From assembly GCA_946406145.1 (NCBI GenBank), contig CAMJJL010000003.1, positions 1 to 64,000 of the forward strand: a DNA stretch of 64,000 bases. The letters are read 5' to 3'. Made by a program: the position numbers and the translations under genes. This DNA is from an uncultured Clostridia bacterium. Its GTDB lineage: Bacteria; Bacillota; Clostridia; Oscillospirales; Acutalibacteraceae. Position 1 is the stretch's first letter. Every line of letters starts with the position of its first letter. Under the pieces are notes generated by a model. The model ran no database searches. It saw only the letters and a list, made by a program, of their open reading frames with translations, and had not been told where the DNA came from. Below are positions 1,071 through 16,651 of this stretch, piece by piece.

Positions 1071-1523
1071 TTATTCCTCCATTTGTTTGCCGAGAAACGC
1101 GGCGGCGGATTGGGCGAGCTTCAATTCTGTGTCTGTGGGGATCTGCACGCGTTCGCCCTTGAGCATCACGACCGCGCCCGTTACATCGCCTGCGGCGATG
1201 ATGGGGTAAATGACCGCGGCGGCGTGATCCACGCCCTCCACCGTCTGTACCTCGTCCACCGAGTGCGCGTGGGCGCTGTAGCTGCGGCGGTTCTCCATAT
1301 AATTCTCCAGTGTTGGGGTGATGCGCCGCTCCAAAAACTCACGCTTGCTCACGCCTGCCGCGGCGATCACGTGGTCGCGGTCACAGATGAGCGTCGGCAT
1401 CGCGCTGATGCGTGACAGCACGTCCGCATACTGCGCCGCAAACTCACTCAGCTCACCCACCGGCGAATACTTCTTAAAAATGACCTCCCCATCCGTCGCA
1501 GTGTATATCTCCAACGGGTCACC
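1071..1523 (-). pseudogene. spoVT: spoVT 3' portion (displaced C-terminal exon-like half)
   Basis: Translation matches the SpoVT region from the end of the AbrB domain through the GAF domain (GDPLEIYTxxDGEVIFKKYSPxGELS...LICDRD...GAVV...AAxFLGKQMEE). Confidence 0.9.
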
Positions 1524-3248
1524 GTCGCTGATAACATTGACAGCAAAGACCCTGTCGGAATGGTGATTGGCGTGTTGAACTGCGTTGAAGGAAGGAGGAT
1601 CGACGCGCGCGTCGTCGGGGAAGAGGGGGCTGCTGAGAATCCCCTCGATGTCTGATTTGAGCTTGATATGGATATGGGTTTCATACACCGTGATTTGATC
1701 GACGATCAGTTCAAGATCGCCCTTGTCGAACTTGTCCTTCTCCAATATCCGCTCAAACAGCCCGACCGCCTTCGGCGCGATCCTGAGCGCTTTGAGGGCG
1801 GTGTCGTGACGTTCAAAGGTCATGCGCTTCTGATTCTCCAGCCCCTCGATCACGCTCTCACACTCCGCGATCAAGTCGTCATAGGTGGATTGTATGCTCT
1901 CCTCGCGCTTCGGATTGCGCGCGATCTCTCGCGCGCATTGACGCAGATAGATCTTTTTCGACTCCTTTTCGGCGGCGATCCGCTCCTCTAATTCCGTGAA
2001 CAGATCGGTATTCTGCTGTTGGTTCTCCTCCTGCTCGGCGATCTCCTGTTCGAGCTTTTCGATCATCTCCGCGCAGGTGGCTTTCACCGCCTTGAGGTAT
2101 TCGCGGATGATGCCGTCGAGCACCTCGACGCGGATGTAGTGGCGCGTACAGTGCGCCTTACCCTGCTTGTGGTAGGTGCCGCAGAGGTATGCCGGGGCGA
2201 GATCGGGACGGCTGAGTGAGAACATTGGGGCGCCGCAGTCGCCGCAGCGGAGCAGTCCCGAGTAGGCGTTCTCGTACTTTTTGACCCCGCGGTAGTTGCC
2301 TTTGGAGCGGCTTTGCATGAGCTGTTGTGTCTGCGCGAACACCGTCGGCTCGATGATCGCTTCGTGATGGTTGAGGAAAATCAGCTGATCTTCTTCGTCG
2401 CGTTTGACGTCGTCGCCGTTGATCTTTTGGCGCGTCGTCTTGCCCTGCCGGAGCGTGCCTATATAGAAATCGTTTTGCAGGATCCCCTGCACGGTCGCGA
2501 CGCTCCAAGCGCTTTTGACCTCGCGGTGGTATTCGTCGCCCCGCGCTTCGATCCGCGCCCGTTCGCTCATGCGCGGGGTGGGGTAGCGACGATCGGTCAG
2601 GTAATTCGCGATCTTGCGATAGCCCCAGCCCTCGTTATACAGGCGGAATATCTCTCGCACGATCTGCGCCTCGCTCGGCTCGACCGCCAATGTCATCGCC
2701 TTGGTGTTGGTCATCACATAGCCGTAGGGCACGGCGCTGATCCACTTGCCGTCCTGCTGACGGCGGCGGATGACGTTACGTACCTTCTTCGAGGTGTCGG
2801 TGACGGGCATCTCGTTCATGAAGAAGTAGATCTGGATCCGCAGCCAGTCATCGTTGGTGGGGTAGTCGATGTTATCTCCGATCGCGATGATGCGTATTCC
2901 CTCGTCGCGCAGGGCTTCCAGCTCCACCAAGCCGGCGCCGTTTCTTCGCGAGAATCGGGACAGATCCTTGACGATCAGAATATCGTATTGATGCTTGAAC
3001 AGCTTGCGCCTGAGCCGCTGGTAGCTCTCGCGCTGCTCGAAGGTGTAGCCCGAGCGATCGCGGTCTTCATAGAAGTCAAGCGCCGAGCCGGGGAAGTTCT
3101 GCTTTGCGAATTCCTCGATGATCGCCTTCTGGTTCTCGATCGAGGTGTTCTCCTTGTTCAGCTCGTCGTCAACCGAGATACGGCAGTACGCCGCGATAGC
3201 GAATCTCTCCACGACCATCGCCCTTTCTTTTAAGATTTCTGTTTTCAT
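1071..3248 (-). CDS. Large serine recombinase fused in frame to the SpoVT C-terminal (GAF) domain. Likely start 3248 (GGAGTGATAAAATG), not 3293
   Basis: N-term resolvase domain (AAYCRISVDDE...DRDRSGYTFEQRESYQRL...DILIVKDLSRFSRR), recombinase domain, zinc ribbon (CGDCGAPMFS...CGTYHKQGKAHCTRHYIR), coiled coil. The C-terminus GDPLEIYTATDGEVIFKKYSPVGELSEFAAQYADVL... is SpoVT-like. Confidence 0.9.
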   Translation of the reverse strand: MKTEILKERAMVVERFAIAAYCRISVDDELNKENTSIENQKAIIEEFAKQNFPGSALDFYEDRDRSGYTFEQRESYQRLRRKLFKHQYDILIVKDLSRFSRRNGAGLVELEALRDEGIRIIAIGDNIDYPTNDDWLRIQIYFFMNEMPVTDTSKKVRNVIRRRQQDGKWISAVPYGYVMTNTKAMTLAVEPSEAQIVREIFRLYNEGWGYRKIANYLTDRRYPTPRMSERARIEARGDEYHREVKSAWSVATVQGILQNDFYIGTLRQGKTTRQKINGDDVKRDEEDQLIFLNHHEAIIEPTVFAQTQQLMQSRSKGNYRGVKKYENAYSGLLRCGDCGAPMFSLSRPDLAPAYLCGTYHKQGKAHCTRHYIRVEVLDGIIREYLKAVKATCAEMIEKLEQEIAEQEENQQQNTDLFTELEERIAAEKESKKIYLRQCAREIARNPKREESIQSTYDDLIAECESVIEGLENQKRMTFERHDTALKALRIAPKAVGLFERILEKDKFDKGDLELIVDQITVYETHIHIKLKSDIEGILSSPLFPDDARVDPPSFNAVQHANHHSDRVFAVNVISDGDPLEIYTATDGEVIFKKYSPVGELSEFAAQYADVLSRISAMPTLICDRDHVIAAAGVSKREFLERRITPTLENYMENRRSYSAHAHSVDEVQTVEGVDHAAAVIYPIIAAGDVTGAVVMLKGERVQIPTDTELKLAQSAAAFLGKQMEE
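1514..1523. other. attL core ACGGGTCACC
   Basis: Identical to 16552-16561; marks the switch from SpoVT-coding to recombinase-coding sequence. Confidence 0.85.
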
Positions 3249-3303
3249 TTTATCACTCCTCTCCGTTGCGTTACAACAGGATAATGTTTCCATATATATG
3301 TAA

Positions 3304-3335
3304 AGCTGCCTCCCTGCGGAAGCAGCCTTTGATCA
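3304..3335 (-). terminator. Hairpin between the small ORF and the recombinase
   Basis: GGCTGCTTCC-GCA-GGGAGGCAGCTTT on the minus strand. Confidence 0.5.
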
Positions 3336-3569
3336 GGAGGCTTTGCTCAGCTCTGTATGCGGACGGTCGATGTTTCGCTTCAACAGCAGATAGACCATTT
3401 CTTCGGGATCGCTTTCGCCCGATTCGATGATAACGGGGAGCGTTCCCTGATCCTTCTGATTTGCTATCGCACTTTGCAGAAAGTCCACGAATGTTTCATC
3501 CTCCGTTTCACTCTTACTGAGCCAGTAGAGCTGAGCCCTTCTCGGAGCCTCCATCATTTGCGTTTTCAT
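3333..3569 (-). CDS. Small acidic hypothetical protein (78 aa) immediately upstream of the recombinase
   Basis: ORF with GAGGTGAGTGAACC upstream of ATG; no recognised family. Confidence 0.55.
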   Translation of the reverse strand: MKTQMMEAPRRAQLYWLSKSETEDETFVDFLQSAIANQKDQGTLPVIIESGESDPEEMVYLLLKRNIDRPHTELSKAS

Positions 3570-3861
3570 GGTTCACTCACCTCACTCATATTCGTTCTCA
3601 CTTAGTATTACCGCTTTTTTCCGTGATTACTCATTCGTAAGGGTGTTGTATGTTAACTTAGAAAATCGCTGAAGTCAAGTCTTTATCAAAACTATTTTTT
3701 CTTTGTGTACTATGACGAATACGGTGTAAATTCGATTTCGAAGCAGGTGAAAAGGATGTGGGTTGCTGTTTTGAGTTTTAGGGCACCACATCGGCCGCCA
3801 ACGCCGACCGTTAAGCCGTTTTTGAGGTATTATCGGGTCAGTTGTTTAGGTGGGTTGCTGA

Positions 3862-4605
3862 GTGGGGTTTTCCGATAAAGTGGGTTGCAAGTTATTTCAA
3901 ACGACGATCCCAAGCCGTTTCGCACCCCGCAACGTGGGTTGCTCAGCTTTTGAAGATAAAATCCTGCACAAAAAGAGAATAAAATATTGCTCTGCCAATC
4001 AAAGAAAACAAAGCTCCTGTCTCGCCCTAACAAAAGCTCCGATCGAGGGGCTGTATATCATTGAGCCGACTGTACACGGTGACAGCCGCGGGTATTTCAT
4101 GGAGACGTATAATCAGCGAGACATGGAAGAAGCCGGGCTGGATATGGTATTTGTGCAGGATAATCAAAGCATGAGCACGAAAGGCGTTTTGCGTGGCTTA
4201 CACTTTCAAATCAACCATCCGCAAGGTAAACTCGTACGAGTCATCAAGGGCAGAGTGTTTGATGTTGCAGTGGATTATCGCAAGGATAGCCCGACCTATT
4301 TGCAGTGGTTTGGCGTTGAGTTGACAGAAGAGAATAAGAAACAGTTTTATATTTCTCCGGGATTCGCTCACGGCTTCTTAGTGTTATCCGATACGGCAGA
4401 ATTCTGCTACAAATGCACCGATTTCTACCATCCGAACGATGAGGGTGGACTCGCCTGGAACGACCCGAAGATCGGTATTGAATGGCCTGAGCTTGTTGGA
4501 GAGTATCAGGGCTCAGCAAGCGCTAAAGGCTATGCGTTAGCTGACGGGACGCCGCTGAATATCAGTGAAAAAGACCAGAAATGGTGTGTGATCTCTTCCG
4601 TTTAA
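3862..4605 (+). CDS. dTDP-4-dehydrorhamnose 3,5-epimerase-like (RfbC family) with a non-canonical N-terminal extension; probably 5' altered
   Basis: APIEGLYIIEPTVHGDSRGYFMETYN...GVLRGLHFQ...QFYISPGFAHGFLVLSDTAEFCYKCTDFY...; only a GTG start far upstream, within unrelated sequence. Confidence 0.75.
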   Translation: MGFSDKVGCKLFQTTIPSRFAPRNVGCSAFEDKILHKKRIKYCSANQRKQSSCLALTKAPIEGLYIIEPTVHGDSRGYFMETYNQRDMEEAGLDMVFVQDNQSMSTKGVLRGLHFQINHPQGKLVRVIKGRVFDVAVDYRKDSPTYLQWFGVELTEENKKQFYISPGFAHGFLVLSDTAEFCYKCTDFYHPNDEGGLAWNDPKIGIEWPELVGEYQGSASAKGYALADGTPLNISEKDQKWCVISSV

Positions 4606-4608
4606 ACT

Positions 4609-4877
4609 ATCGGCTATTCTTTCGCAGCAACCTATTCATATACCTACAAAAAATGTTATATCAATTGTCAAGTGGTATAACACACCCGTTGCGGATATAT
4701 TCCGTCAGTGGGTGTTTTTTCTATTATATCAAAAGCACCTTCGTCAACCTGCACTATGTAAGGTTCAATCTTTTGTCAATGTTGAATAAGGAAATGGTAA
4801 ATTTTAGCCACTGTGTCAATGTTGTCAGTAGCGGGTCGATATGATGGGTAATTATGGTTGGCTAAAATAGGTAAATC
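4609..4877. repeat. Element-end repeat copy R1 (contains a terminator hairpin and half attP arm TGTCAATGTTGTC...CGGGTC)
   Basis: Eye alignment to 10249-10521 over the whole length, and to 16459-16561 over the last ~100 bp. Confidence 0.8.
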
Positions 4878-4968
4878 AATCATTACAAAATTATCCTACT
4901 ATTTTATATAGCAAACGCAAGCGCAGACCAATGCTGTGCTTGCGTCTTTTGAATATTTTTCAGATTCG

Positions 4969-6159
4969 TCAGATCTCATCGAGTGAGTTCAGCATGACAA
5001 AGTCTTTGAACTTACAGTGATACACCGTGCTGGTGGAATAGTCGATGTCATCGTTGGTGATGATGATCTTTTTGACGAGATTATCAACTCCGGCAAAAGC
5101 CGAAAACTCGCGGTCATACGCTTTCTCTTCTGCTACGCTGTACGCGACCTGGATCAGATACACCTTATTATCCTTCTCAGCGCGGAAATCGATTTCGCGT
5201 CCGGAGTTATTGTATACATTTACCTCATAGCCCATGTACAGCAGCTCATTCAGCACCGCGTTCTCAAAGTTGTGCGTCAGGTCATAGCGGTTGCCGGCGC
5301 AGCGAATGCTATTGAGGGATACATCCTCGTCATACAGCTTCTGATAATAGCTCATTTTTGATTTCGCCTTCTGCGAATACTGTGGGACCTCATTGATTAC
5401 ATAAGCCTCTTTGAGATAGGAGAGATACTTGATGACCGTCGGCGTTGATATTTTGATCCCCTGACTGACCATATACTTCGTGACGGATTGCGCGCTGAAG
5501 ATCCGCGCGTTTGACACCAGAATGAAGTCGACCATCTTTTCAAAGACGTCGGCTTTTTTGATTTTGTATCGGTTTTCAAGATCGTTGTATATGATCGTGT
5601 CGTTCAGATCGGACAGATATCTCTTTTTGCTGTCAAGGTCGGGCAGTTCAAATGACGCGGGAAAACCGCCCCACACCAGATAATCGGTGACGGAAAGCTC
5701 CTTGCCCAGCGTCTCGCAATACTCCTTTGCCTCGCGATAGACGAACGGTCTGATCCGGAATGAAACATACCTTCCGCTGAGCTCCTTGGTGAATTCGCCC
5801 GATAAGAGCTTCGAGTTGCTGCCGGAAATGAACACGGAGCAGTCCTGCAGGCGTAAGGTTCTGCAGGCTTCCGCCCAGCCTTTTACGTTCTGGACTTCGT
5901 CGAGGAACACATAGCATGTGCCTTCACGCCGATTGTTCTTTACATATTCGATCAGCGCGTCGGCGTCGGGGATCTGGTTGCGCACGGGCTTGAGGTCGAA
6001 ATCGAGGAACAGGGTATCCTTGCCATGAGCGCCGATCTCCGCATACGCCTGCTTGAGCAGAACGGACTTCCCGGATCGTCTGATTCCCGTGATAATCTTG
6101 ATCAGATCGCTGTTGTAAAAACTCCTGATCGGATTCAGGTAATGTTCGCGTGTAATCAT
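4969..6159 (-). CDS. AAA ATPase with DUF4143 C-terminal domain
   Basis: Walker A GIRRSGKSVLLKQ, Walker B CYVFLDEVQN, FISGSNSKLLSGE, C-terminal EIDFRAEKDNKVYLIQVAYSV nuclease-like region. Confidence 0.85.
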   Translation of the reverse strand: MITREHYLNPIRSFYNSDLIKIITGIRRSGKSVLLKQAYAEIGAHGKDTLFLDFDLKPVRNQIPDADALIEYVKNNRREGTCYVFLDEVQNVKGWAEACRTLRLQDCSVFISGSNSKLLSGEFTKELSGRYVSFRIRPFVYREAKEYCETLGKELSVTDYLVWGGFPASFELPDLDSKKRYLSDLNDTIIYNDLENRYKIKKADVFEKMVDFILVSNARIFSAQSVTKYMVSQGIKISTPTVIKYLSYLKEAYVINEVPQYSQKAKSKMSYYQKLYDEDVSLNSIRCAGNRYDLTHNFENAVLNELLYMGYEVNVYNNSGREIDFRAEKDNKVYLIQVAYSVAEEKAYDREFSAFAGVDNLVKKIIITNDDIDYSTSTVYHCKFKDFVMLNSLDEI

Positions 6160-6189
6160 GATATCACCGCCATATTTAGTATGCTTCTA

Positions 6190-6272
6190 TTTTACTTTAT
6201 AAATTCATCATTGTCAAGAATTTGTAAAGTTGTACTTTACAAATTCTTAGAAAAGAAGATTTTGTAAAGCAG
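6190..6272. promoter_or_regulatory. Operator-like palindrome cluster (TTTGTAAAG/CTTTACAAA) in the divergent ATPase/recQ intergenic region
   Basis: Perfect 14-bp inverted repeat AAGAATTTGTAAAG-TTGTA-CTTTACAAATTCTT (6216-6248), with further half-sites ACTTTATAAATTC and TTTTGTAAAG. Confidence 0.55.
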
Positions 6273-6391
6273 AGTGTATCTTCTGCTGGTATAATGTTAT
6301 AGACATTCTTTTATCAAAGAATATTGACAAACAGATGTTCGGTGTGATAGTATAATAATATCAAACATATTATCGATATTGAGCGGAGGCG

Positions 6392-8635
6392 ATGGCAATG
6401 TGTAGCGCTTTAGTTGATGAGATGAATCATGCAGAATCAGCTGATACAAAAGCCAAATATGCAGTGCTGGAGCGGTACTTCGGCTATCGCTCGTTTCGTC
6501 GCGGACAGGAAGAGGTCGTTGACAGTCTGCTGTCCGGACGAGATGCCCTCGCCATCATGCCGACGGGTGCGGGAAAATCGCTTTGCTATCAGGTGCCCGC
6601 ATTGATGCTGGATGGCGTTACGCTGGTCATATCTCCCCTGATCTCGCTGATGAAGGATCAGGTCAACGCCCTGACCGCGCAGGGAGTGAGAGCCGCCTAT
6701 CTGAACAGCTCCCTGAATGATGCGCAGTATAATAAAGCGTTAGCGAATATGGCGAACGGGATGTACAAGATTGTCTATGTAGCCCCCGAGCGCTTGAAAT
6801 CGTCGCGCTTTATCCGTGCGGCGACAAGCATCCGTGTTTCGCTGATCGCGGTCGATGAAGCACACTGCGTATCACAGTGGGGACAGGATTTTCGTCCGAG
6901 TTATCTGAACATCGCGGAGTTTATCGCCGAATTGCCCAACCGCCCGACGATCGGCGCGTTTACCGCAACAGCGACAACGGAAGTCAAACAGGATATCGTT
7001 CGCATTTTGGGACTGCATGATTCACTGGAGGTGACCACCGGCTTTGATCGTCCCAATCTGTTTTTCTCAGTGATACGAACCTCGCAGAAGTCGAAGCAGC
7101 TTTTATATCTGTTGTTTTCCCGAATGAATAACTCCGGGATCATCTATTGCTCGACACGCAAGACCGTGGAGAAGGTCTGCGCTTTGCTGTGCGATAAGGG
7201 CTTTTCCGCTACGCGTTATCATGCGGGACTGAGTGATGAAGAGCGCCGCATGAATCAGGACGACTTTGTCTATGACCGCAAGCGTATCATGGTCGCGACC
7301 AACGCCTTCGGCATGGGCATCGACAAGTCCGATGTGCGTTATGTAATCCATTACAATATGCCGAAGAATCTCGAGAGCTATTATCAGGAGGCGGGTCGTG
7401 CCGGTCGCGACGGTGAGGACTCCGATTGTATTTTGCTGTTTGGGCATCAGGATATTCAAACCGCATGGTATTTCATTGATCATATGGAGCCGAATCCGGA
7501 GCTCAGCGATGAGCAGAATGAAGCCTTCAGGAAGAAGGAGATCGAACGGCTCGGTCATATGATCGCGTATTGCAAAACGCGCGAATGTCTCAGGGCGCAT
7601 ATGCTGCGCTATTTCGGTGACAGTGCCGATGATCGCTGTGACAAGTGCTCCAACTGTCGGTCGAAAGTGAAGACCTTTGACGCTACCATCGAATCGCAGA
7701 AGATCCTGTCCTGTATTGTAAAGACCGGGCAGCGCTTTGGTGCGCGGGTCATCTCGGATACGCTGAGAGGAAAGATCAACGATCGTGTGCAATCGCTCGG
7801 ATTTGATCGGCTTTCCACCTTCGGCATCATGGAGAATGAGAGGAAAAAGTATATCAACGAGATGATTGACGAGCTGGAGCGCATGGATTACGTTCGCTAT
7901 GTCGGCGCGGGTTACCCGATCATCAAGGTGACGGACGCCGGATGGCGCGTACTCAGGGGAGAGGAAAAGGTGATGATGATTCAAACCGACCTGCTCCGAA
8001 CTTCAGCCAAAGCCCAAAAGTCGAAGGAAGAAGAAACGGCGTTTGAAGCCCACAACAGAGAATTGTTCGATGCACTGAGAAAAACACGAGCTGAGATCGC
8101 CGGTAAGCGAGGTGTGCCGGCTTATGTGATCTTTTCCGATGCGGCTCTGCGTGATATGTGCGAAAAACTGCCGACAACAGATGAAGAATTCCTGTCTGTC
8201 AACGGCGTCGGCGAAACAAAGCTCAAGCAATACGGCGCTGTCTTTATCCCTGTGATCAAGCGCTATCTCCCCACAAAAAGAGGCAAATTACCGTTTTACA
8301 TTTCTGAGGAGCAGTTGAGCTGTTTTGAGTATTCGGATATGCCGATCCCGGTTTCCAAAATCACAAGGCAGATCAATGATTTGGCAGAGGATGAGCGCCG
8401 AAAGAAGCTCAGAGCAACGGATATCACAGACTGGCTGATGTCGATCTATGTTCTGAAGATCGAGGAGTTGAACAGCAAACCCTTCAAGCTCCCGACCTCT
8501 AACGGCACAAAGCTGGGATTATCGGTTGAGCGAAGAGAAAAAGATGACGGCGAGCCCTACTATATCACGCTATACAACCGCAAGGCGCAGGAATTTGTGA
8601 TCGATAATATGAATAGCGTTATTGCATCTTTATAA
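6392..8635 (+). CDS. recQ: RecQ family ATP-dependent DNA helicase
   Basis: FGYRSFRRGQEEVVDSLLSGRDALAIMPTGAGKSLCYQVPA, DEAH box, QEAGRAGRDG, zinc cysteines, HRDC-like C-terminus. Confidence 0.93.
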   Translation: MAMCSALVDEMNHAESADTKAKYAVLERYFGYRSFRRGQEEVVDSLLSGRDALAIMPTGAGKSLCYQVPALMLDGVTLVISPLISLMKDQVNALTAQGVRAAYLNSSLNDAQYNKALANMANGMYKIVYVAPERLKSSRFIRAATSIRVSLIAVDEAHCVSQWGQDFRPSYLNIAEFIAELPNRPTIGAFTATATTEVKQDIVRILGLHDSLEVTTGFDRPNLFFSVIRTSQKSKQLLYLLFSRMNNSGIIYCSTRKTVEKVCALLCDKGFSATRYHAGLSDEERRMNQDDFVYDRKRIMVATNAFGMGIDKSDVRYVIHYNMPKNLESYYQEAGRAGRDGEDSDCILLFGHQDIQTAWYFIDHMEPNPELSDEQNEAFRKKEIERLGHMIAYCKTRECLRAHMLRYFGDSADDRCDKCSNCRSKVKTFDATIESQKILSCIVKTGQRFGARVISDTLRGKINDRVQSLGFDRLSTFGIMENERKKYINEMIDELERMDYVRYVGAGYPIIKVTDAGWRVLRGEEKVMMIQTDLLRTSAKAQKSKEEETAFEAHNRELFDALRKTRAEIAGKRGVPAYVIFSDAALRDMCEKLPTTDEEFLSVNGVGETKLKQYGAVFIPVIKRYLPTKRGKLPFYISEEQLSCFEYSDMPIPVSKITRQINDLAEDERRKKLRATDITDWLMSIYVLKIEELNSKPFKLPTSNGTKLGLSVERREKDDGEPYYITLYNRKAQEFVIDNMNSVIASL

Positions 8636-8758
8636 CCAAAGGAAAGATTAATTGGACATGATTGCGTTCTCATCGGCGCAGGAGTGTAATAAATTACGAG
8701 AAGATTTTGCGTAATCATTAATGTAATAGAAAAAGATTCATATATCTGCTATAATACG

Positions 8759-8800
8759 ATTCGGCAGCTTCCCATGGTAGGAGCTGCCGAATTTATTTAT
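8759..8800 (+). terminator. Hairpin terminator
   Basis: TTCGGCAGCT-tcccatggtagg-AGCTGCCGAA-TTTATTTAT. Confidence 0.65.
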
Positions 8801-8813
8801 AGGAGGTATTCAG

Positions 8814-9258
8814 ATGAATACGAATAATTACCCAATCTACCATAAGCAGATCAACTTAGAGAGATTCACGGAGGTAGAATCGCCGAAAGGTTTTGGCGAT
8901 CGGTGTAAGCGAAAGCGGTCATCTCGCGATGAATGAACGGTTCTTGTCGATGATCCGATGTTTCAAAATGAAGATGATGATCTCGGATGACAGGAAAATG
9001 ATTCTGCTCAATGAAACAGAGGATGGTCAATATGTATTTCCGAAGTCGGGAAGGATCAAGGATGTAGAGTTTGTTAAATCTCTTTATGATGCCGGTCTTG
9101 CTGTACCGTGCAGATACATCATCAGCTATAGTGAAGAACGGCAACTGTGGGTCGGAGAGTACACTGATGTGTTGAGCGGCGGCAAACAGAGCTTGGAGTA
9201 TTCCGTCGGAAAAATGATGGGCAGCGTCAAAAACAGGAGAAAGAAGAATGGAAAATGA
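8814..9258 (+). pseudogene. Hypothetical protein, apparently frameshifted (ATG 8814 frame vs main ORF 8893-9258)
   Basis: AGGAGG RBS before ATG 8814, but that frame stops near 8931; the longer ORF (DRKMILLNETEDGQYVFPKSGRIKDVEFVKSLYDAG...) is in another frame and only has a TTG start. Confidence 0.4.
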
Positions 9259-9742
9259 TTATCCCAAGCGATATCTGGAAAAGCTGTATCGCCATTACTT
9301 CTTTCATAAATGGGAAGGGTGGCGTGAAGAGATCTTTCAGATCATGTGGAAAGCCCTCTTCGAGGCAAAGAAAAGATATCGTCGCTATCGGTGTCGGTAT
9401 GATTTTGAGGATTATGCGGAAACGGTCATCGTCAAAAAAGTTAACATCTGGATGAAACAGAATCACAGGTATAATTACCGATATTTGTCTTTAGATAAAC
9501 CTTTTGTCGATAGCGAGGAAACGATGCTGTCAACCTATATCGTGGCAGATAATTTATTTTGTTCTCTTGAACTCTATGATTTTATCTCCCGACTCAGTTT
9601 CATCAAATATTCCGTCTGTAAAGGATATATCCTGAGGTATTATGATGAGGAGATCGCTGCAGGGCTTCATCTTTCTCAAGAACAGCTCGAAGGGATCAAG
9701 ATGGAATTTCGGCAGGATTTCATTGCCGGATATTTGATATGA
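9248..9742 (+). CDS. Sigma-70-like protein (divergent)
   Basis: YDFEDYAETVIVKKVNIWMKQNHRYNYRYLSLDKPFVDSEETMLSTYIVAD resembles sigma region 2 plus linker; C-terminal YYDEEIAAGLHLSQEQLEGIKMEF resembles a region 4 HTH. Confidence 0.5.
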   Translation: MENDYPKRYLEKLYRHYFFHKWEGWREEIFQIMWKALFEAKKRYRRYRCRYDFEDYAETVIVKKVNIWMKQNHRYNYRYLSLDKPFVDSEETMLSTYIVADNLFCSLELYDFISRLSFIKYSVCKGYILRYYDEEIAAGLHLSQEQLEGIKMEFRQDFIAGYLI

Positions 9743-9768
9743 TATCAGGGAAGGAGTAACGATTAATA

Positions 9769-10134
9769 ATGCTTGATTTTTTACCATACATCGTATCTGT
9801 GCTGTGCGCTTTGATCGCAGGCTTATCCAGTTATGTCTGTGCAAGACGTCAAGCGAAGACGGAGATCTTAAAGCTGGACAGGCAATTCACGATCGATTTA
9901 GAGAAAGAGCGTGAGAAGGCAAAGCTGGCTCTGGAGAAAGAACGGGAGAAAAACCGACTGGAAACAGAGCGATTACAGCTGCAGTATCAACACGAATTAG
10001 AGCTAAAGGATAAGGAGATGCAGAACGCTATGGGAGAAAGTGTCGTCAATACGCTTTTTTCTGAGCTGATGAAAACACCGGAGATGAAGCAGCAGATTTC
10101 CGATAGTTTCAAAAAGGGCGGCAAAAAGAAATAG
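9769..10134 (+). CDS. Membrane-anchored coiled-coil hypothetical protein
   Basis: N-terminal TM segment followed by an E/K-rich coiled coil. Confidence 0.55.
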   Translation: MLDFLPYIVSVLCALIAGLSSYVCARRQAKTEILKLDRQFTIDLEKEREKAKLALEKEREKNRLETERLQLQYQHELELKDKEMQNAMGESVVNTLFSELMKTPEMKQQISDSFKKGGKKK

Positions 10135-10183
10135 TATTTGTTGACCCACATTCCGAGATGTTCAACTGAAAAGTCTAATGAAA

Positions 10184-10224
10184 GCCGTCACTCATACGGC
10201 AATTCGACATACATGAGTGACGGC
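10184..10224. terminator. Long hairpin GCCGTCACTCAT...ATGAGTGACGGC
   Basis: Perfect 12-bp stem with a 17-nt loop. Confidence 0.55.
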
Positions 10225-10248
10225 ATATTAGGGTGATTCTTTTCTGTT

Positions 10249-10521
10249 ATCGGCTATTCTTTTGAAGCAACCCCTCCATATACTTACTAAAAATGTTATA
10301 TCAATTGTCAAGTGGTATAACATACCCGCTGCGGTTCATATACACCGTCAGCGGGCTTTTTTGCTTATTCGTCAAAGATCCCCCTCGTCGACCTGCACTA
10401 TGTAAGATTCAATCTTTTGTTGATGTTGAATAAGGAAATGGCTATTTTTAGCCACTGTGTCAATGTTGTATGTGAGGGGTCGATATAATGGATAATTATG
10501 GATGGTAAAAAGAGGTAAATT
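10249..10521. repeat. Element-end repeat copy R2
   Basis: Homologous to R1 (4609-4877) throughout, including ATGTTATATCAATTGTCAAGTGGTATAACA and TGTCAATGTTG. Confidence 0.8.
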
Positions 10522-10758
10522 AGTATTGTCAATGATTATGACGCTATACAAAGAATTAGACAGAGATCAATTCAAAAAACGAATATAGAGAAAAAACGCC
10601 GGTGGCGATGTTTGTCTTAGGGAGTATAACCCGAGAATTGATTAATGTGATTTGTTTCCTATTTGACACAACTGCGATATCATAATATAATATAACTGAA
10701 ATGGGCTTTCTGATAGACAGAGAAAGCTGATCGAGAAATCTATTGCAGGTGAAAGAAA

Positions 10759-12090
10759 ATGGATGCCAATCTTTATGAAAGACTGAAGAATAAAGAAGAA
10801 AAGCTCTCATTGATCGGGCTAGGTTATGTCGGTATGCCGATCGCGGTCGCATTTGCGAACAAAGGGATCGACGTTATCGGTTTCGATCTGAACAAGGCGA
10901 AGATTGAGCTGTATCAAAACGGCGTCGATCCGACCAACGAGGTAGGTGACGAGGCGATCAAGGCTTCATCTGTTGAATTTACCGCGGATGAAACAAAGCT
11001 CAAAGAGGCGAAGTTCCATATCGTTGCGGTTCCTACGCCGGTCAATACCGATCATACGCCCGATCTTTCTCCCGTGATCGGCGCGAGTGAAATCGTCGGC
11101 AGAAATCTGACAAAAGGCAGTATCGTTGTTTACGAATCGACCGTTTATCCGGGCGTGACGGAAGATGTCTGTATCCCGATTTTGGAACGAGAATCCGGCA
11201 TGCAATGCGGCGTTGATTTCAAGATCGGTTACTCTCCCGAGCGCATCAATCCCGGCGATAAGGTTCATCGTCTGGAGAACATCCGTAAGATCGTTTCCGG
11301 CATGGATGAAGAGAGTTTAGCGATCATCAAGGCGGTCTATGATACTGTCATCGAGGTCGGCACCTATCCTGTCAGCACAATCAAAACCGCCGAGGCTGTC
11401 AAGGTAGTAGAGAACAGCCAGCGCGATATCAATATCGCGTTCATGAACGAATTGGCGATGGTGTTTGATCGCATGGGCATTGATACCAACGAGGTCGTTG
11501 ACGGCATGAATACGAAATGGAACGCACTCGGCTTCCGTCCCGGTCTGGTCGGCGGTCATTGTATCGGAGTGGATCCCTATTACTTTACGTACGAAGCAGA
11601 AAAACTCGGCTATCACAGCCAGATCATATTAAACGGCAGAATCGTCAACGACGGCATGGGCAGATATGTTGCCGAATCTGCTGTCAAAGAAATGATTAAG
11701 GCAGGACAGGCTCCGAAGAATTCTAATGTCGTGATTTTAGGGCTTACTTTCAAGGAGAATTGTCCCGATACGCGCAACAGCAAGGTCGATGATATCATCA
11801 AGAGCCTGAATGAGTACGGTATCACACCGATCGTTGTCGATCCTTGGGCGAGCGAGCGTGATGCTATGCACGAGTACGGTGTGACCTTGACAAAGCTCGA
11901 GAAAGTCAAAGACGCCGACTGCGTTATCGCTGCTGTAGCTCATGATGAGTTCAAGGCTTTGTCGCTTGATGAGATCAAAGCGTTGTATCGCGCAGATCTT
12001 TCCGATGACGAAAAGGTGCTGTTGGACGTAAAAGGTCTCTACAGCGTTCCCGATTTGAAAGCATCCGGTATGAGTTACTGGAGATTATAA
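10759..12090 (+). CDS. UDP-N-acetyl-hexosamine 6-dehydrogenase (TviB/WbpO type nucleotide sugar dehydrogenase)
   Basis: LSLIGLGYVGMPIAVAFANKG, GYSPERINPGDKVHRLENI, GFRPGLVGGHCIGVDPYY. Confidence 0.9.
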   Translation: MDANLYERLKNKEEKLSLIGLGYVGMPIAVAFANKGIDVIGFDLNKAKIELYQNGVDPTNEVGDEAIKASSVEFTADETKLKEAKFHIVAVPTPVNTDHTPDLSPVIGASEIVGRNLTKGSIVVYESTVYPGVTEDVCIPILERESGMQCGVDFKIGYSPERINPGDKVHRLENIRKIVSGMDEESLAIIKAVYDTVIEVGTYPVSTIKTAEAVKVVENSQRDINIAFMNELAMVFDRMGIDTNEVVDGMNTKWNALGFRPGLVGGHCIGVDPYYFTYEAEKLGYHSQIILNGRIVNDGMGRYVAESAVKEMIKAGQAPKNSNVVILGLTFKENCPDTRNSKVDDIIKSLNEYGITPIVVDPWASERDAMHEYGVTLTKLEKVKDADCVIAAVAHDEFKALSLDEIKALYRADLSDDEKVLLDVKGLYSVPDLKASGMSYWRL

Positions 12091-12283
12091 AAGATTTCTA
12101 TTAATTTTCACATTGTTATGAAGAGAGCATATCGAATGAGGTAAGCTCTCTTTTATTTATGCCGAGGATATGACAGTATTCACTTTGCGCTGAGCTGTGC
12201 TATTGTATTTGACACTTTGGCAATAAGGATATATAATACAATAAAAAACAAGTATTTACCAATCACTTGACGAAGGATGAGAT

Positions 12284-13318
12284 ATGATGAGCAGTTTTGC
12301 AGGAGCTACCCTGATGATTACAGGAGGTACGGGTTCATTCGGAAACACTGTTCTAAAGCATTTTTTAGCCAGCGATATCGGAGAGATCCGCATTTTCTCG
12401 CGCGACGAGAAGAAGCAGGACGATATGCGCCATGATTTGCAGGCGCGTTTTCCCGAATTCGCCAATAAGGTGAAGTTCCACATCGGCGACGTCCGCAACG
12501 CGCAGTCCATCAAGGACGCGATGTGGGGCGTTGACTATGTGTTCCACGCGGCGGCATTGAAGCAGGTTCCGTCATGCGAGTTCTTCCCGATGGAGGCTGT
12601 CCGGACTAACGTGGAGGGTACCGACAATATGCTCCATGCGGCGATTGACTGCGGCGTCAAGCGTGTCGTCTGCCTGTCGACCGACAAGGCAGCGTATCCG
12701 ATCAACGCGATGGGTATCTCCAAAGCGATGATGGAGCACGTTGTTTCGGCAAACGCTCGCGTAGCGGCGGAGCGAGGCGCCACGGTCATCTGCTGTACAC
12801 GCTACGGCAACGTCATGTGCTCTCGCGGCTCGGTCATCCCGCTGTTCATCGACCAGATCAAGGCGGGTAATCCGATCACGATCACCAACCCCGATATGAC
12901 GCGTTTCCTCATGAATCTCGATGAGGCGGTCGATCTCGTCAAGTTCGCCTTTGAGCACGCCAACCCGGGCGATCTCTTCATCCAAAAGGCGGACGCCTCC
13001 ACGATTGGGGTGCTTGCGCAGGCGGTGCAAAAGCTCTTCGGTGATACCGGTACCAAGATCATCGGCACTCGTCACGGCGAGAAATTGTATGAAACTTTGA
13101 TGACTCGTGAGGAGCGACTCCGTTCCGAGGATATGGGTGATTACTACCGTGTAGCGGCAGACAGCCGTGATCTGAACTATGATAAATTTGTCGTCAAGGG
13201 CGAAGTTGCCACTGAGGCGGACGAGTCCTATACCAGTCACAACACTAATCTGCTGGACGTCGACGGCACGGTTGAAAAGATCCTCACCACCGATTATGTA
13301 AAAGAGGCGTTGAAATGA
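12284..13318 (+). CDS. capE: UDP-N-acetylglucosamine 4,6-dehydratase/5-epimerase (CapE-type)
   Basis: ITGGTGSFGNTVLKHFL, AALKQVPSCEFFPMEAVRTNV, STDKAAYPINAMGISKAMME. Confidence 0.88.
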   Translation: MMSSFAGATLMITGGTGSFGNTVLKHFLASDIGEIRIFSRDEKKQDDMRHDLQARFPEFANKVKFHIGDVRNAQSIKDAMWGVDYVFHAAALKQVPSCEFFPMEAVRTNVEGTDNMLHAAIDCGVKRVVCLSTDKAAYPINAMGISKAMMEHVVSANARVAAERGATVICCTRYGNVMCSRGSVIPLFIDQIKAGNPITITNPDMTRFLMNLDEAVDLVKFAFEHANPGDLFIQKADASTIGVLAQAVQKLFGDTGTKIIGTRHGEKLYETLMTREERLRSEDMGDYYRVAADSRDLNYDKFVVKGEVATEADESYTSHNTNLLDVDGTVEKILTTDYVKEALK

Positions 13319-14490
13319 GCGATTATTCAAACGTTAAATGGAAAGATAACGGCAAGCTCAAGCTCCTGATCATTGTCGGGACACGACCCGAGATCATCCG
13401 CCTTGCCGCCGTGATCCATAAAGCGCGCAGGTATTTTGATACCATCCTCGCGCATACGGGTCAGAACTATGATTACAACCTCAACGGCGTTTTCTTCAAG
13501 GATCTGTCTCTTGACGATCCCGACGTCTACCTCGACGCGGTCGGCGCTGATCTCGGCGAGACGATGGGCAATATCATCGCGAAAAGCTATCAGCTGATGG
13601 CTGAGATAAAGCCCGACGCGGTTCTGGTCTTGGGCGATACCAACTCTTGTCTGAGCGTCATCGGCGCAAAGCGCCTGCACATCCCGATCTTCCACATGGA
13701 AGCCGGTAACCGCTGTAAGGACGAGTGTCTGCCCGAGGAAACCAACCGCCGTATCGTCGACATCATCAGCGACGTCAACCTCGCCTACAGCGAGCACGCA
13801 AGAAGATATCTTGCCGATACAGGGCTTCCGAAGGAACGCACCTATGTGACAGGCTCCCCGATGGCGGAGGTGCTGCATAACAACCTCGCGCAGATCGAAG
13901 CAAGCGATATCCATGCGCGACTTGGTTTGGAGAAGGGCAGGTACATCCTGCTCTCCGCTCACCGTGAGGAAAATATCGACACCGAAAAGAATTTTATCAG
14001 CCTGTTCACGGCGATCAATAAAATGGCAGAAAAGTACGATCTGCCGATTCTGTATTCGTGCCATCCGCGCTCAGCAAAACGACTTAAAGAGAGTGGTTTT
14101 AAACTGGACACACGTGTCCTTCAGCATGAGCCGTTAGGCTTCCATGACTATAACTGCCTGCAGATGAACGCCTTTGCGGTCGTGTCCGACAGCGGTACGC
14201 TTCCTGAGGAAAGCTCGTTCTTTACGAGCATCGGTAAGCCGTTCCCTGCTGTTTGCATCCGCACCTCTACCGAACGTCCCGAGGCGCTCGACAAAGCCTG
14301 CTTTATCCTCGCCGGCATCGATGATAAGAGCCTGCTCCAGGCGGTCGATACCGCCGTTGAGATGAACAAAAGCGGCGACCTCGGCATCCCCGTCCCCGAT
14401 TACACGGACGAGAATGTGTCCGATAAGGTCATCAAGATCATCCAGTCCTACACCGGTGTGGTGAATAAAATGGTTTGGAGAAAGTATTGA
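13315..14490 (+). CDS. capG: UDP-N-acetylglucosamine 2-epimerase (CapG/WecB family)
   Basis: IIVGTRPEIIRLAAVI, HTGQNYDYNL, VLGDTNSCLS, HMEAGNRC, ETNRRIVDIISD; start overlaps the capE stop. Confidence 0.87.
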   Translation: MSDYSNVKWKDNGKLKLLIIVGTRPEIIRLAAVIHKARRYFDTILAHTGQNYDYNLNGVFFKDLSLDDPDVYLDAVGADLGETMGNIIAKSYQLMAEIKPDAVLVLGDTNSCLSVIGAKRLHIPIFHMEAGNRCKDECLPEETNRRIVDIISDVNLAYSEHARRYLADTGLPKERTYVTGSPMAEVLHNNLAQIEASDIHARLGLEKGRYILLSAHREENIDTEKNFISLFTAINKMAEKYDLPILYSCHPRSAKRLKESGFKLDTRVLQHEPLGFHDYNCLQMNAFAVVSDSGTLPEESSFFTSIGKPFPAVCIRTSTERPEALDKACFILAGIDDKSLLQAVDTAVEMNKSGDLGIPVPDYTDENVSDKVIKIIQSYTGVVNKMVWRKY

Positions 14491-15041
14491 TCAGAGATTT
14501 TTTCTATTCTATCATCCAATTCTTTAGTACCAGCTCTATGTGGCTGATTATCGCAGTAGTTGCCGTATTTACCCTCGGATGGGGTCTGCTAGAATACCGG
14601 TTGCGGCGTAACGCCAAGCTGTATACGATCGTCAATGCCGTTCTGCTTGCCGTCAGTCTTTTTTTCATCCTTAGTATTACGCTGCTGGTCAGAATACCAG
14701 ATGACTATCAGAGAGTTTCTTTGATCCCTTTTGATTTTGTTTATGGATCGAACAATAGCCGGGGTCTATTCAAATCAATGGGGATGAATGTTGTACTGTT
14801 TATTCCTCTGCCGATGTTCGGATGCAGTCTGTTCCGATGTCATTCCAATAAGTCGGGGCTGATCTTTATCGCGTCGGGGATCGCGTTCTCGTTTTTGATC
14901 GAGAGTATGCAATATTTATTTGTCCTCGGACAGGCGGACGCGGATGATGTGATTTTCAATACACTGGGATTGCTGATCGGATATCTGCTGTATCGTCTGC
15001 ACGATCGTTATATTATGAAGAGAAAAGGAAATATTACATGA
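14475..15041 (+). CDS. VanZ-family membrane protein
   Basis: Multiple TM segments, LIPFDFVYG and IESMQYLFVLGQADADDVIFNTLGLLIGYLLY motifs. Confidence 0.75.
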   Translation: MEKVLIRDFFYSIIQFFSTSSMWLIIAVVAVFTLGWGLLEYRLRRNAKLYTIVNAVLLAVSLFFILSITLLVRIPDDYQRVSLIPFDFVYGSNNSRGLFKSMGMNVVLFIPLPMFGCSLFRCHSNKSGLIFIASGIAFSFLIESMQYLFVLGQADADDVIFNTLGLLIGYLLYRLHDRYIMKRKGNIT

Positions 15042-16234
15042 ACATATTAGTCACCGGCGCGAAGGGCATGGTCGGACAGGCTTTGGTTGCAAATCTGAAG
15101 AATATCCGTGACGGTAAGAACCGCACCAGACCCGCGCTTAAAATCGAAGAGATCTTTGAATATGATATTGACAGTACCGAGGCTCAGTTGGACGAGTATT
15201 GCCAAAAGGCGGACTTTGTCTTTAACCTTGCCGGCGTGAATCGTCCGAAGGATAACGCGGAGTTCATGCAGGGCAATTTCGGCTTCGGCTCAAAGCTGCT
15301 CGATACCTTGAAGAAGTATGATAACAAAGCCCCCGTGATGCTGTCAAGCTCGATTCAAGCGACCCTGATCGGTCGCTACGGTGAGAGCGATTACGGGAAA
15401 AGCAAGCTTGCCGGAGAAGAACTGTTCTTCCAATACGGCGAAGAGAATGGGGTAAAGGTAGCTATCTATCGCTTCCCGAATCTCATGGGTCACAGCCGAC
15501 CGAATTATAACAGCGCGGTGTCGACCTTCTGCAACGCTGTCGCGAACGATCTGCCGTTTACCGTCAACGATCGTAACGCGACCGTTGAGCTGCTCTACAT
15601 CGACGATCTGGTTGAAGCGATGTTCGACCTGCTCGAGGGAAAGGAAAAGCGCTGTGAGTATGACGGCTTGAAGCCGGTCGAGGACCCACAGGGTCGGTAT
15701 TGTTATGTTCCGTTGACGTATACCGTTACCCTCGGCGAGATCGTCGATTTATTGGAACAGTTCAAGGCGCAGCATGATACCCTGATCGTGCCGCCTATCC
15801 CCGACGGCAGCTTTGCTAAGAAGCTCTACAGTCTTTATCTGAGCTATCTGCCGACAAAGGACTTCAAGTTCGCGCTCAAGATGAACTGCGACGACCGCGG
15901 GTCATTCACCGAGCTATTGAAGACCGCCGATCACGGGCAGTTCAGCGTGAATATCAGCAAGCCCGGTATCACCAAGGGTCAGCACTGGCACAATTCAAAG
16001 TGGGAATTCTTCGTTGTCGTCAGCGGACGTGCTTTGATAGAAGAACGTAATATTTGCACAAACGAAAAAATCAGCTTTGAGGTCAGCGGCGACAAGATCG
16101 AAGCCGTCCACATGATCCCGGGCTGGACGCATAATATCATCAATCTCAGCGACACTGAGAACCTCGTCACCCTCATGTGGGCGAACGAGCTGTTCGATCC
16201 CAACCATCCGGATACGTTCTTTGATCCGGTGTGA
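15038..16234 (+). CDS. capF: CapF-type UDP-2-acetamido-2,6-dideoxy-hexose reductase with C-terminal cupin domain
   Basis: MNILVTGAKGMVGQALV..., LAGVNRPKDNAEFMQGN, YGKSKLAGEE, C-terminal KPGITKGQHWHNSKWEFFVVVSG cupin. Confidence 0.88.
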   Translation: MNILVTGAKGMVGQALVANLKNIRDGKNRTRPALKIEEIFEYDIDSTEAQLDEYCQKADFVFNLAGVNRPKDNAEFMQGNFGFGSKLLDTLKKYDNKAPVMLSSSIQATLIGRYGESDYGKSKLAGEELFFQYGEENGVKVAIYRFPNLMGHSRPNYNSAVSTFCNAVANDLPFTVNDRNATVELLYIDDLVEAMFDLLEGKEKRCEYDGLKPVEDPQGRYCYVPLTYTVTLGEIVDLLEQFKAQHDTLIVPPIPDGSFAKKLYSLYLSYLPTKDFKFALKMNCDDRGSFTELLKTADHGQFSVNISKPGITKGQHWHNSKWEFFVVVSGRALIEERNICTNEKISFEVSGDKIEAVHMIPGWTHNIINLSDTENLVTLMWANELFDPNHPDTFFDPV

Positions 16235-16243
16235 TATGCACAT

Positions 16244-16284
16244 AAAAAGACTGAACCTTACTATCAGTGGGTTCAGTCTTTTTG
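16244..16284 (+). terminator. Terminator after capF
   Basis: AAAAAGACTGAACC-ttactatcagt-GGGTTCAGTCTTTTT. Confidence 0.75.
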
Positions 16285-16458
16285 TGTGGTGTTCAACTCC
16301 CTTCATCCTAACAATGCGTATATCACAAAAATCCAACACTATTAAGATGCCTGTTCACAAAATTACAAATACATCAAGCTGCTACCATCACAAAATCCTA
16401 TATTCTGTTCACCGGCACCCCTCTCGGATGCAATGGTCAGGGCTGATCAGCAGACGAA

Positions 16459-16561
16459 CCATCGTCAACCTGCACTATGTAAGGCTCAGTCTTTTGTCAA
16501 TGTTGAATAAGGAAATGGTAAATTTCAGCCACGGTGTCAATGTTGTCTGTGACGGGTCACC
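16459..16561. repeat. Element right end / copy R3 of the end repeat
   Basis: CCTGCACTATGTAAGGCTCAGTCTTTTGTCAATGTTGAATAAGGAAATGG...GTGTCAATGTTGTCTGTGACGGGTCACC, homologous to R1 and R2. Confidence 0.8.
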
Positions 16562-16651
16562 CTCGCGGATACGCAGGGTGCGGCGGATCTCTTTGGGGAT
16601 AACGACGCGGCCGAGGTCATCGATGCGTCTGACAATTCCTGTTGCTTTCAT
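16475..16651 (-). pseudogene. spoVT: spoVT 5' portion: AbrB-domain N-terminus truncated by the element, reads into the element and stops after 58 aa
   Basis: ATG 16651 preceded by AAGGAG; translation MKATGIVRRIDDLGRVVIPKEIRRTLRIREGDP|SQTTLTPWLKFTISLFNIDKRLSLT*. Confidence 0.92.
16552..16561. other. attR core ACGGGTCACC
   Basis: Identical to 1514-1523. Confidence 0.85.

Follow-up and report, generated by a model that had tools for sequence, protein, structure and literature searches.

The recombinase gene of a mobile element inserted in the sporulation gene spoVT is best read as a split gene with its last exon across the attachment site attP. This element lies in the 64,000-nucleotide stretch of DNA from an uncultured Clostridia bacterium that was analysed here (the window). 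Its serine recombinase (LSR) frame runs into host spoVT codons, and a conserved tail of the same frame is found 15 kb away behind the start of spoVT. We assign a probability of roughly 0.55 to the explanation as a whole, in which the tail belongs to the circle-form, integrating enzyme and is removed by integration. The features of the window are as follows.

1515..16561, no strand: mobile element within spoVT, core to core, about 15 kb (split spoVT; core common to both ends).
1071..3248, reverse strand: LSR frame joined in frame to SpoVT residues 33-180 (translation and domains).
1071..1514, reverse strand: 3' part of spoVT, host DNA, with the rest of the N-terminal domain and the GAF domain (SpoVT_C, E=1.4e-41; 75-82% identity with intact spoVT of the same genus).
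1515..1542, reverse strand: attL, made of the core GGTGACCCG (1515-1523) and the left attP arm TGTCAATGTTATCAGCGAC (1524-1542), within the LSR frame (sequence and comparison of 27 elements).
3333..3569, reverse strand: 78-aa ORF immediately 5' of the LSR, candidate for a directionality factor or an accessory protein (a homologue precedes the LSR at 65 of 78 loci).
3650..3678, reverse strand: putative sigma-A-like promoter TTGACT-17-TAACAT, ahead of both the 78-aa ORF and the LSR (consensus match only).
16475..16555, reverse strand: putative final LSR exon of the circular form, PSQTTLTPWLKFTISLFNIDKRLSLT with a stop (alike in 29 elements; coding signature; tracks the LSR, not SpoVT).
16535..16561, reverse strand: attR, made of the core (16553-16561) and the right attP arm (16535-16552) (sequence and comparison; arms co-vary in genome G403).
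16562..16651, reverse strand: 5' part of spoVT, codons 1-30, the core holding codons 31-32 (identical to intact copies).

The ORF at 3248..1071 on the reverse strand comprises 740 codons when counted from an upstream ATG at 3293. Resolvase, Recombinase and Zn-ribbon domains, in this order and with the catalytic-motif serine (YxRxS) and the coiled coil of an LSR, are followed by a full SpoVT_C domain (residues 614-739, E=1.4e-41), and residues 588-739 match positions 27-180 of TIGR02851. Translation and domains thus bear out the claim of the sequence-only reading that the LSR has no stop codon of its own and takes its C-terminus from the integration state. The fused part does amount to about 150 residues with the GAF domain, as had been proposed, and also takes in the last strands of the SpoVT N-terminal domain. 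The peptide spanning this junction is ...NVISDGDPLEIYT..., while that of the tail form is ...NVISDGDPSQTT.... In a predicted model of the fusion, which includes helices at 374-503, the LSR domains are complete ahead of a disordered joint and SpoVT_C is well predicted; the pTM of 0.36 leaves the relative arrangement of LSR and SpoVT_C undefined, and no fixed packing is predicted. The nearest solved structures are the SPbeta integrase with and without its directionality factor (9dxh, 9dxd), and SpoVT. Relatives in NCBIfam are Ccr recombinases, every Ccr match falling far under the equivalog cut-offs.

The element, of 15 kb, interrupts spoVT after codon 32. The first codons of the gene lie 15 kb from its 3' part, on the same strand, and are followed by 26 element codons and a stop: the circle tail predicted from the sequence, PSQTTLTPWLKFTISLFNIDKRLSLT, is present exactly as written, with its stop, after the spoVT 5' part (16651..16562, reverse strand). 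Rejoining the host flanks in silico gives an intact SpoVT N-terminal region, as in intact copies of the same genus, so that a sporulation gene is interrupted here and its precise restoration can be read from the DNA. The search for a second spoVT in the window's genome (95% complete) found none. GGTGACCCG is common to both junctions, and joining the element ends yields the attP TGTCAATGTTATCAGCGAC-GGTGACCCG-TCACAGACAACATTGACA, with inverted arms TGTCAATGTTATCAGCGAC and TCACAGACAACATTGACA, inside the recombinase frame. We reconstructed 27 attP/attB pairs, all with the inverted arms and the short core shared with attB that characterize LSR attachment sites. In all 27 elements the attP arms fall in the element's own coding sequence, as in an integration-dependent C-terminal switch. 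Both arms in G403 (loci L045 and L118) depart from the family in matching ways (TATCAACACTGTCAG and CTGACAGTGTTGATA), which indicates that the pairing of the arms is kept.

The cargo in the window comprises RecQ, a dTDP-rhamnose epimerase, a UDP-sugar dehydrogenase and epimerases, a VanZ-like protein and an AAA_14/DUF4143 protein; it is a glycan-modification set with RecQ, and no phage. The element of Anaerotruncus massiliensis (L073, 697-5787 and 7308-8480) encodes a relaxase together with a type I restriction subunit and a GmrSD-type enzyme, and from this cargo some members of the family look mobilizable and defence-bearing. A phage or plasmid carrier was rejected: there is no close plasmid relative, and the few records labelled viral are contigs, short or lacking annotation, in which the LSR is fused to SpoVT or the sequence breaks off close to the att site. 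Four loci filed as viral, three in IMG/VR (L110, L111, L113) and one in GenBank as Bacteriophage sp. (L146), have the LSR joined to a bacterial SpoVT_C and resemble bacterial elements in the integrated state, not free phage. A search of the collected loci and viral contigs with the attP read-through pattern gave no match.

A survey of 398 genomes of the window's family recovered the same fusion in about 10 other genera, and a scan of the species genome collection gave 80 named loci, nearly all fused. Elements that insert in spoVT are a widespread group in gut bacteria, and the observation made in the window is general. The frame is kept, as the sequence-only reading had asked of homologous insertions, at 87/87 LSR-SpoVT_C junctions with an intact core, a count that includes the window and some near-identical copies. 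The stretch from the last LSR motif to the core varies among over 20 distinct lengths, almost always between 34 and 87 residues; since all are in frame, many insertions and deletions have kept it. The sole out-of-frame locus, L040, lost core and frame through a deletion across the core. Apparent internal stops in L009, L010 and L012 were discarded, as they precede the start. In L166 (G419, contig C12, 3500-14000), a single LSR-SpoVT_C has two spoVT 5' fragments upstream, separated by about 7.5 kb and differing in their tails, which may reflect tandem insertions; G398 and G411 likewise have two spoVT 5' fragments each.

Four LSRs (L017, L018, L031 and L070) are not joined to spoVT and have other codons at their ends. 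About 6, 13 and 24 residues are encoded past the core in L018, L031 and L070, respectively. In L017 (1492-4005) the LSR is in frame with about 240 codons of an endonuclease/exonuclease/phosphatase-like ORF, and the spoVT of that genome is intact.

The tail is alike in 29 elements, with 25-29 residues except for one of 38, and a consensus close to P-S-Q-T-T-L-x-x-W-x-x-F-C-F-x-M-L-D-L-A-K-R-x-G-W. Past the attP arm, differences by codon position are 0.53/0.37/0.62. The pooled pN/pS is 0.54 in frame versus 0.87 and 1.26 in the other frames, values near saturation that give a contrast between frames and not a rate. These substitution patterns indicate that the tail is protein-coding, and conserved as such, as would be expected of an integration-dependent C-terminal switch. 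Tail identity correlates with LSR identity (Mantel rho 0.53, p=0.0002), but not with that of SpoVT_C (rho 0.03, p=0.38); the most diverged tail is that of L118. Two elements outside spoVT, L070 (G413) and L018 (G360), both from genomes with an intact spoVT, also keep the tail. Their tails lie 10-20 kb upstream of the LSR on the same strand, preceded by a stop and other sequence and with no SpoVT attached. Finally, the LSR of L089 reads directly into the tail, ...NLISDGDTPLTSLTRELTFYNAIRD, at a contig end. The opposite end of that contig has its own copy of the tail, with one base different. An attP-type junction is thereby present in a deposited record, and it may stem from a circle, from a tandem copy or from mixed strains. 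A tail that is conserved, coding, LSR-tracking, kept outside spoVT and joined to the LSR in L089 is most plausibly the final exon of the LSR gene. It is probably helical according to the predicted model, in which the helix has low confidence.

Homologues of the 78-aa ORF mostly have 65-95 residues, lie directly or closely upstream of the LSR, and share the consensus MEIEVEEEKKIVEIWLTKEESEDEALKESLKPLYKEYKAKKYLVVVFESGEEDLEESTEDLLKHN...; searches of Pfam, PHROGs and NCBIfam gave no family match. The LSR of the C. difficile skin element is transcribed from a sigma-A promoter and gated by CD1234 (PMC5025042). By analogy, control of the spoVT elements may resemble that of skin if the upstream ORF is a directionality factor.

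We propose that in the circle the LSR would read through attP into the conserved tail of about 26 residues and then stop. Recombination with spoVT codons 31-33 would sever the tail, leaving it behind the spoVT 5' end, and would at the same time join the recombinase frame to SpoVT residues 33-180. The integrating enzyme would bear the tail, and the enzyme made from the integrated copy would be without it and carry SpoVT_C. The two forms would then differ in activity: the tail most likely helps the integration reaction, so that its loss would be a functional change. The SpoVT domain would be a tolerated passenger or a modifier of excision. It is predicted to be flexibly attached behind catalytic, DNA-binding and coiled-coil domains that are complete, and excision should therefore still be possible. 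Excision would probably be aided by a separate directionality factor, for example the conserved upstream ORF, and would restore both spoVT and the LSR-tail gene.

The discordant histories of the two halves bear on how the fusions arose. LSR identity shows no significant correlation with that of SpoVT_C (Mantel rho 0.09, p=0.16). L091 and L100 share 93% identity in the LSR and 39% in SpoVT_C, and L052 and L053 share 97% and 57%; the window and L051 show the opposite pattern, with 56% in the LSR and 98% in SpoVT_C. When the window is compared with L032, dS differs within the one ORF, from about 0.4-0.7 for the LSR to 2.0 for SpoVT_C. The junction of LSR and SpoVT_C is a recombination boundary, and as the two histories are unrelated, the elements move between hosts and each fusion is made afresh. 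The same architecture in many genomes would also be found if a stable LSR-SpoVT_C fusion gene were inherited as a unit, or if the junction were an assembly artefact, but we give this next to no credence. The former is ruled out by the discordance. The latter is ruled out by about 20 genomes in which the contig with the fusion also carries the 5' spoVT half, at the opposite end of the element and on the same strand, and by the presence of the fusion in cultured isolates (Ruminococcus bicirculans 80/3, Anaerotruncus massiliensis AT3, R. flavefaciens 007c and Agathobaculum butyriciproducens DSM 100391). After integration the tail continues the frame of SpoVT codons 1-32, and its conservation could reflect selection on a small SpoVT N-terminal peptide rather than on the recombinase. 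This is most improbable: tail identity fails to follow SpoVT_C, and the two non-spoVT elements whose tails are intact behind a stop and other sequence rule it out.

The in-frame junctions themselves weigh little between the remaining readings. The LSR of the circle must read through the core into the conserved tail, so one 1-in-3 coincidence at the origin suffices to explain frame retention; the chance argument of the sequence-only reading is right when applied once, to the origin of the phase, and fails when applied to each homologue. As the tail constrains the same frame, the conserved frame is no independent evidence for a useful SpoVT or GAF fusion, and we set it aside as proof of one. It is possible, if somewhat doubtful, that the whole arrangement is a by-product: the tail would be an ordinary LSR C-terminus overlapped by attP by chance, the spoVT phase would have been matched once, and loss of the tail or gain of SpoVT_C would leave activity unchanged, a separate directionality factor deciding as in C. 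difficile skin (PMC5025042). The tail alone does suffice for frame retention, and the conserved small ORF upstream of the LSR may be enough to determine direction. LSRs with unrelated codons past the core occur as well, and the persistence of these four suggests that the lost tail may not matter once integrated. However, the conservation of the tail sequence implies a function in the circle form, and its loss at every integration is unlikely to be without effect. We consider it unlikely that the gained SpoVT_C acts as a built-in directionality factor or sensor, the fused form excising, perhaps on a forespore signal. Integrated copies do yield the fused LSR only, so that self-driven excision would need the fusion, and engineered integrase-RDF fusions reverse direction (PMC5737554). 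The strong purifying selection on SpoVT_C in the fused state would also fit, but is predicted equally by a SpoVT that is restored. Moreover, SpoVT_C is host-derived and falls to 39% identity from one host to another even where the LSRs are near-identical, which is hard to match with specific contacts with the LSR, and the disordered joint with no predicted fixed packing also argues against it. It is equally improbable that the system forms a natural self-encoded switch, in which the tail form would integrate, the SpoVT_C form would excise when gated in the forespore, and the spore circle would encode the integrating form and reinsert after germination. The split-gene reading, with a tail that probably serves integration, is the one we prefer.

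SpoVT is made in the forespore and is required for mature spores in C. difficile (PMC3789822). SASP genes were found in 25/25 carriers tested, and 23 of these have a strong SigG-type match; in G405 the match is split between contigs. The window's genome has a SASP gene, and its sigma factors match the SigG model only weakly, which may reflect a missing contig or a lost gene. In the other carriers checked, the SpoVT start runs into the tail and not into SpoVT. As the window's genome is without a second spoVT, the element must leave in the forespore if these hosts sporulate, and such excision would be heritable and passed on by the spore, in contrast to the mother-cell cases of the skin type. 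Some contigs end exactly at the att core, on the host side (L150, L152, L154) or on the element side (L050, L112). Together with the L089 junction they are indirect hints of excision; the contig ends fit an assembly fork from coexisting inserted and empty or circular forms, and strain mixtures look alike.

Without an added directionality factor, serine integrases work in a single direction, and the means by which elements time the reverse reaction are under active study. In the spoVT elements one gene would give two integrase versions set by the insertion state of the DNA, with many natural orthologues available. LSRs cloned from integrated genomes would here carry a host domain and miss their own last 26 residues, a trap for genome-engineering tools. 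Our literature search, which covered open papers, gave no report of an element in spoVT or of a serine recombinase with an attP-split coding sequence.

The known sporulation gene-intervening elements with an LSR include skin (sigK), SPbeta (spsM), vfbin (spoVFB), gin (gerE) and yin (yabG); spoVT is not mentioned in these reports (PMC5595907, PMC10747680, PMC4191935, PMC5025042). As in these cases, an LSR-bearing element lies in a sporulation gene that precise excision would restore, here as judged from the DNA. Unlike in those cases, the target spoVT is a forespore gene, so that excision would be heritable, and attP completes the recombinase, which is fused to a host gene product. The SPbeta integrase (SprA/YokA) and the Ccr recombinases share the catalytic, recombinase and zinc domains and, from their aligned range and chain length, appear to be without the attP-spanning extension and the tail. 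In engineered serine integrase-RDF fusions, a domain on the integrase C-terminus can reverse direction and favours excision (PMC5737554). Unlike the spoVT elements, those fusions are artificial and carry a true directionality factor. SpoVT_C is not known to bind LSRs. In the integration-dependent immunity of mycobacteriophage BPs, attP lies inside a coding sequence and integration alters the C-terminus of the phage's own regulator (PMC4557955). The BPs system and the engineered fusions are precedents for the logic that we propose. The spoVT elements are similar in that attP lies in the coding sequence of the element's own protein, whose C-terminus is altered by integration. The BPs regulator is a repressor that is truncated and thereby stabilised, and its integrase is a tyrosine integrase. 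In the spoVT elements, by contrast, the serine recombinase itself loses its tail and gains a host domain.
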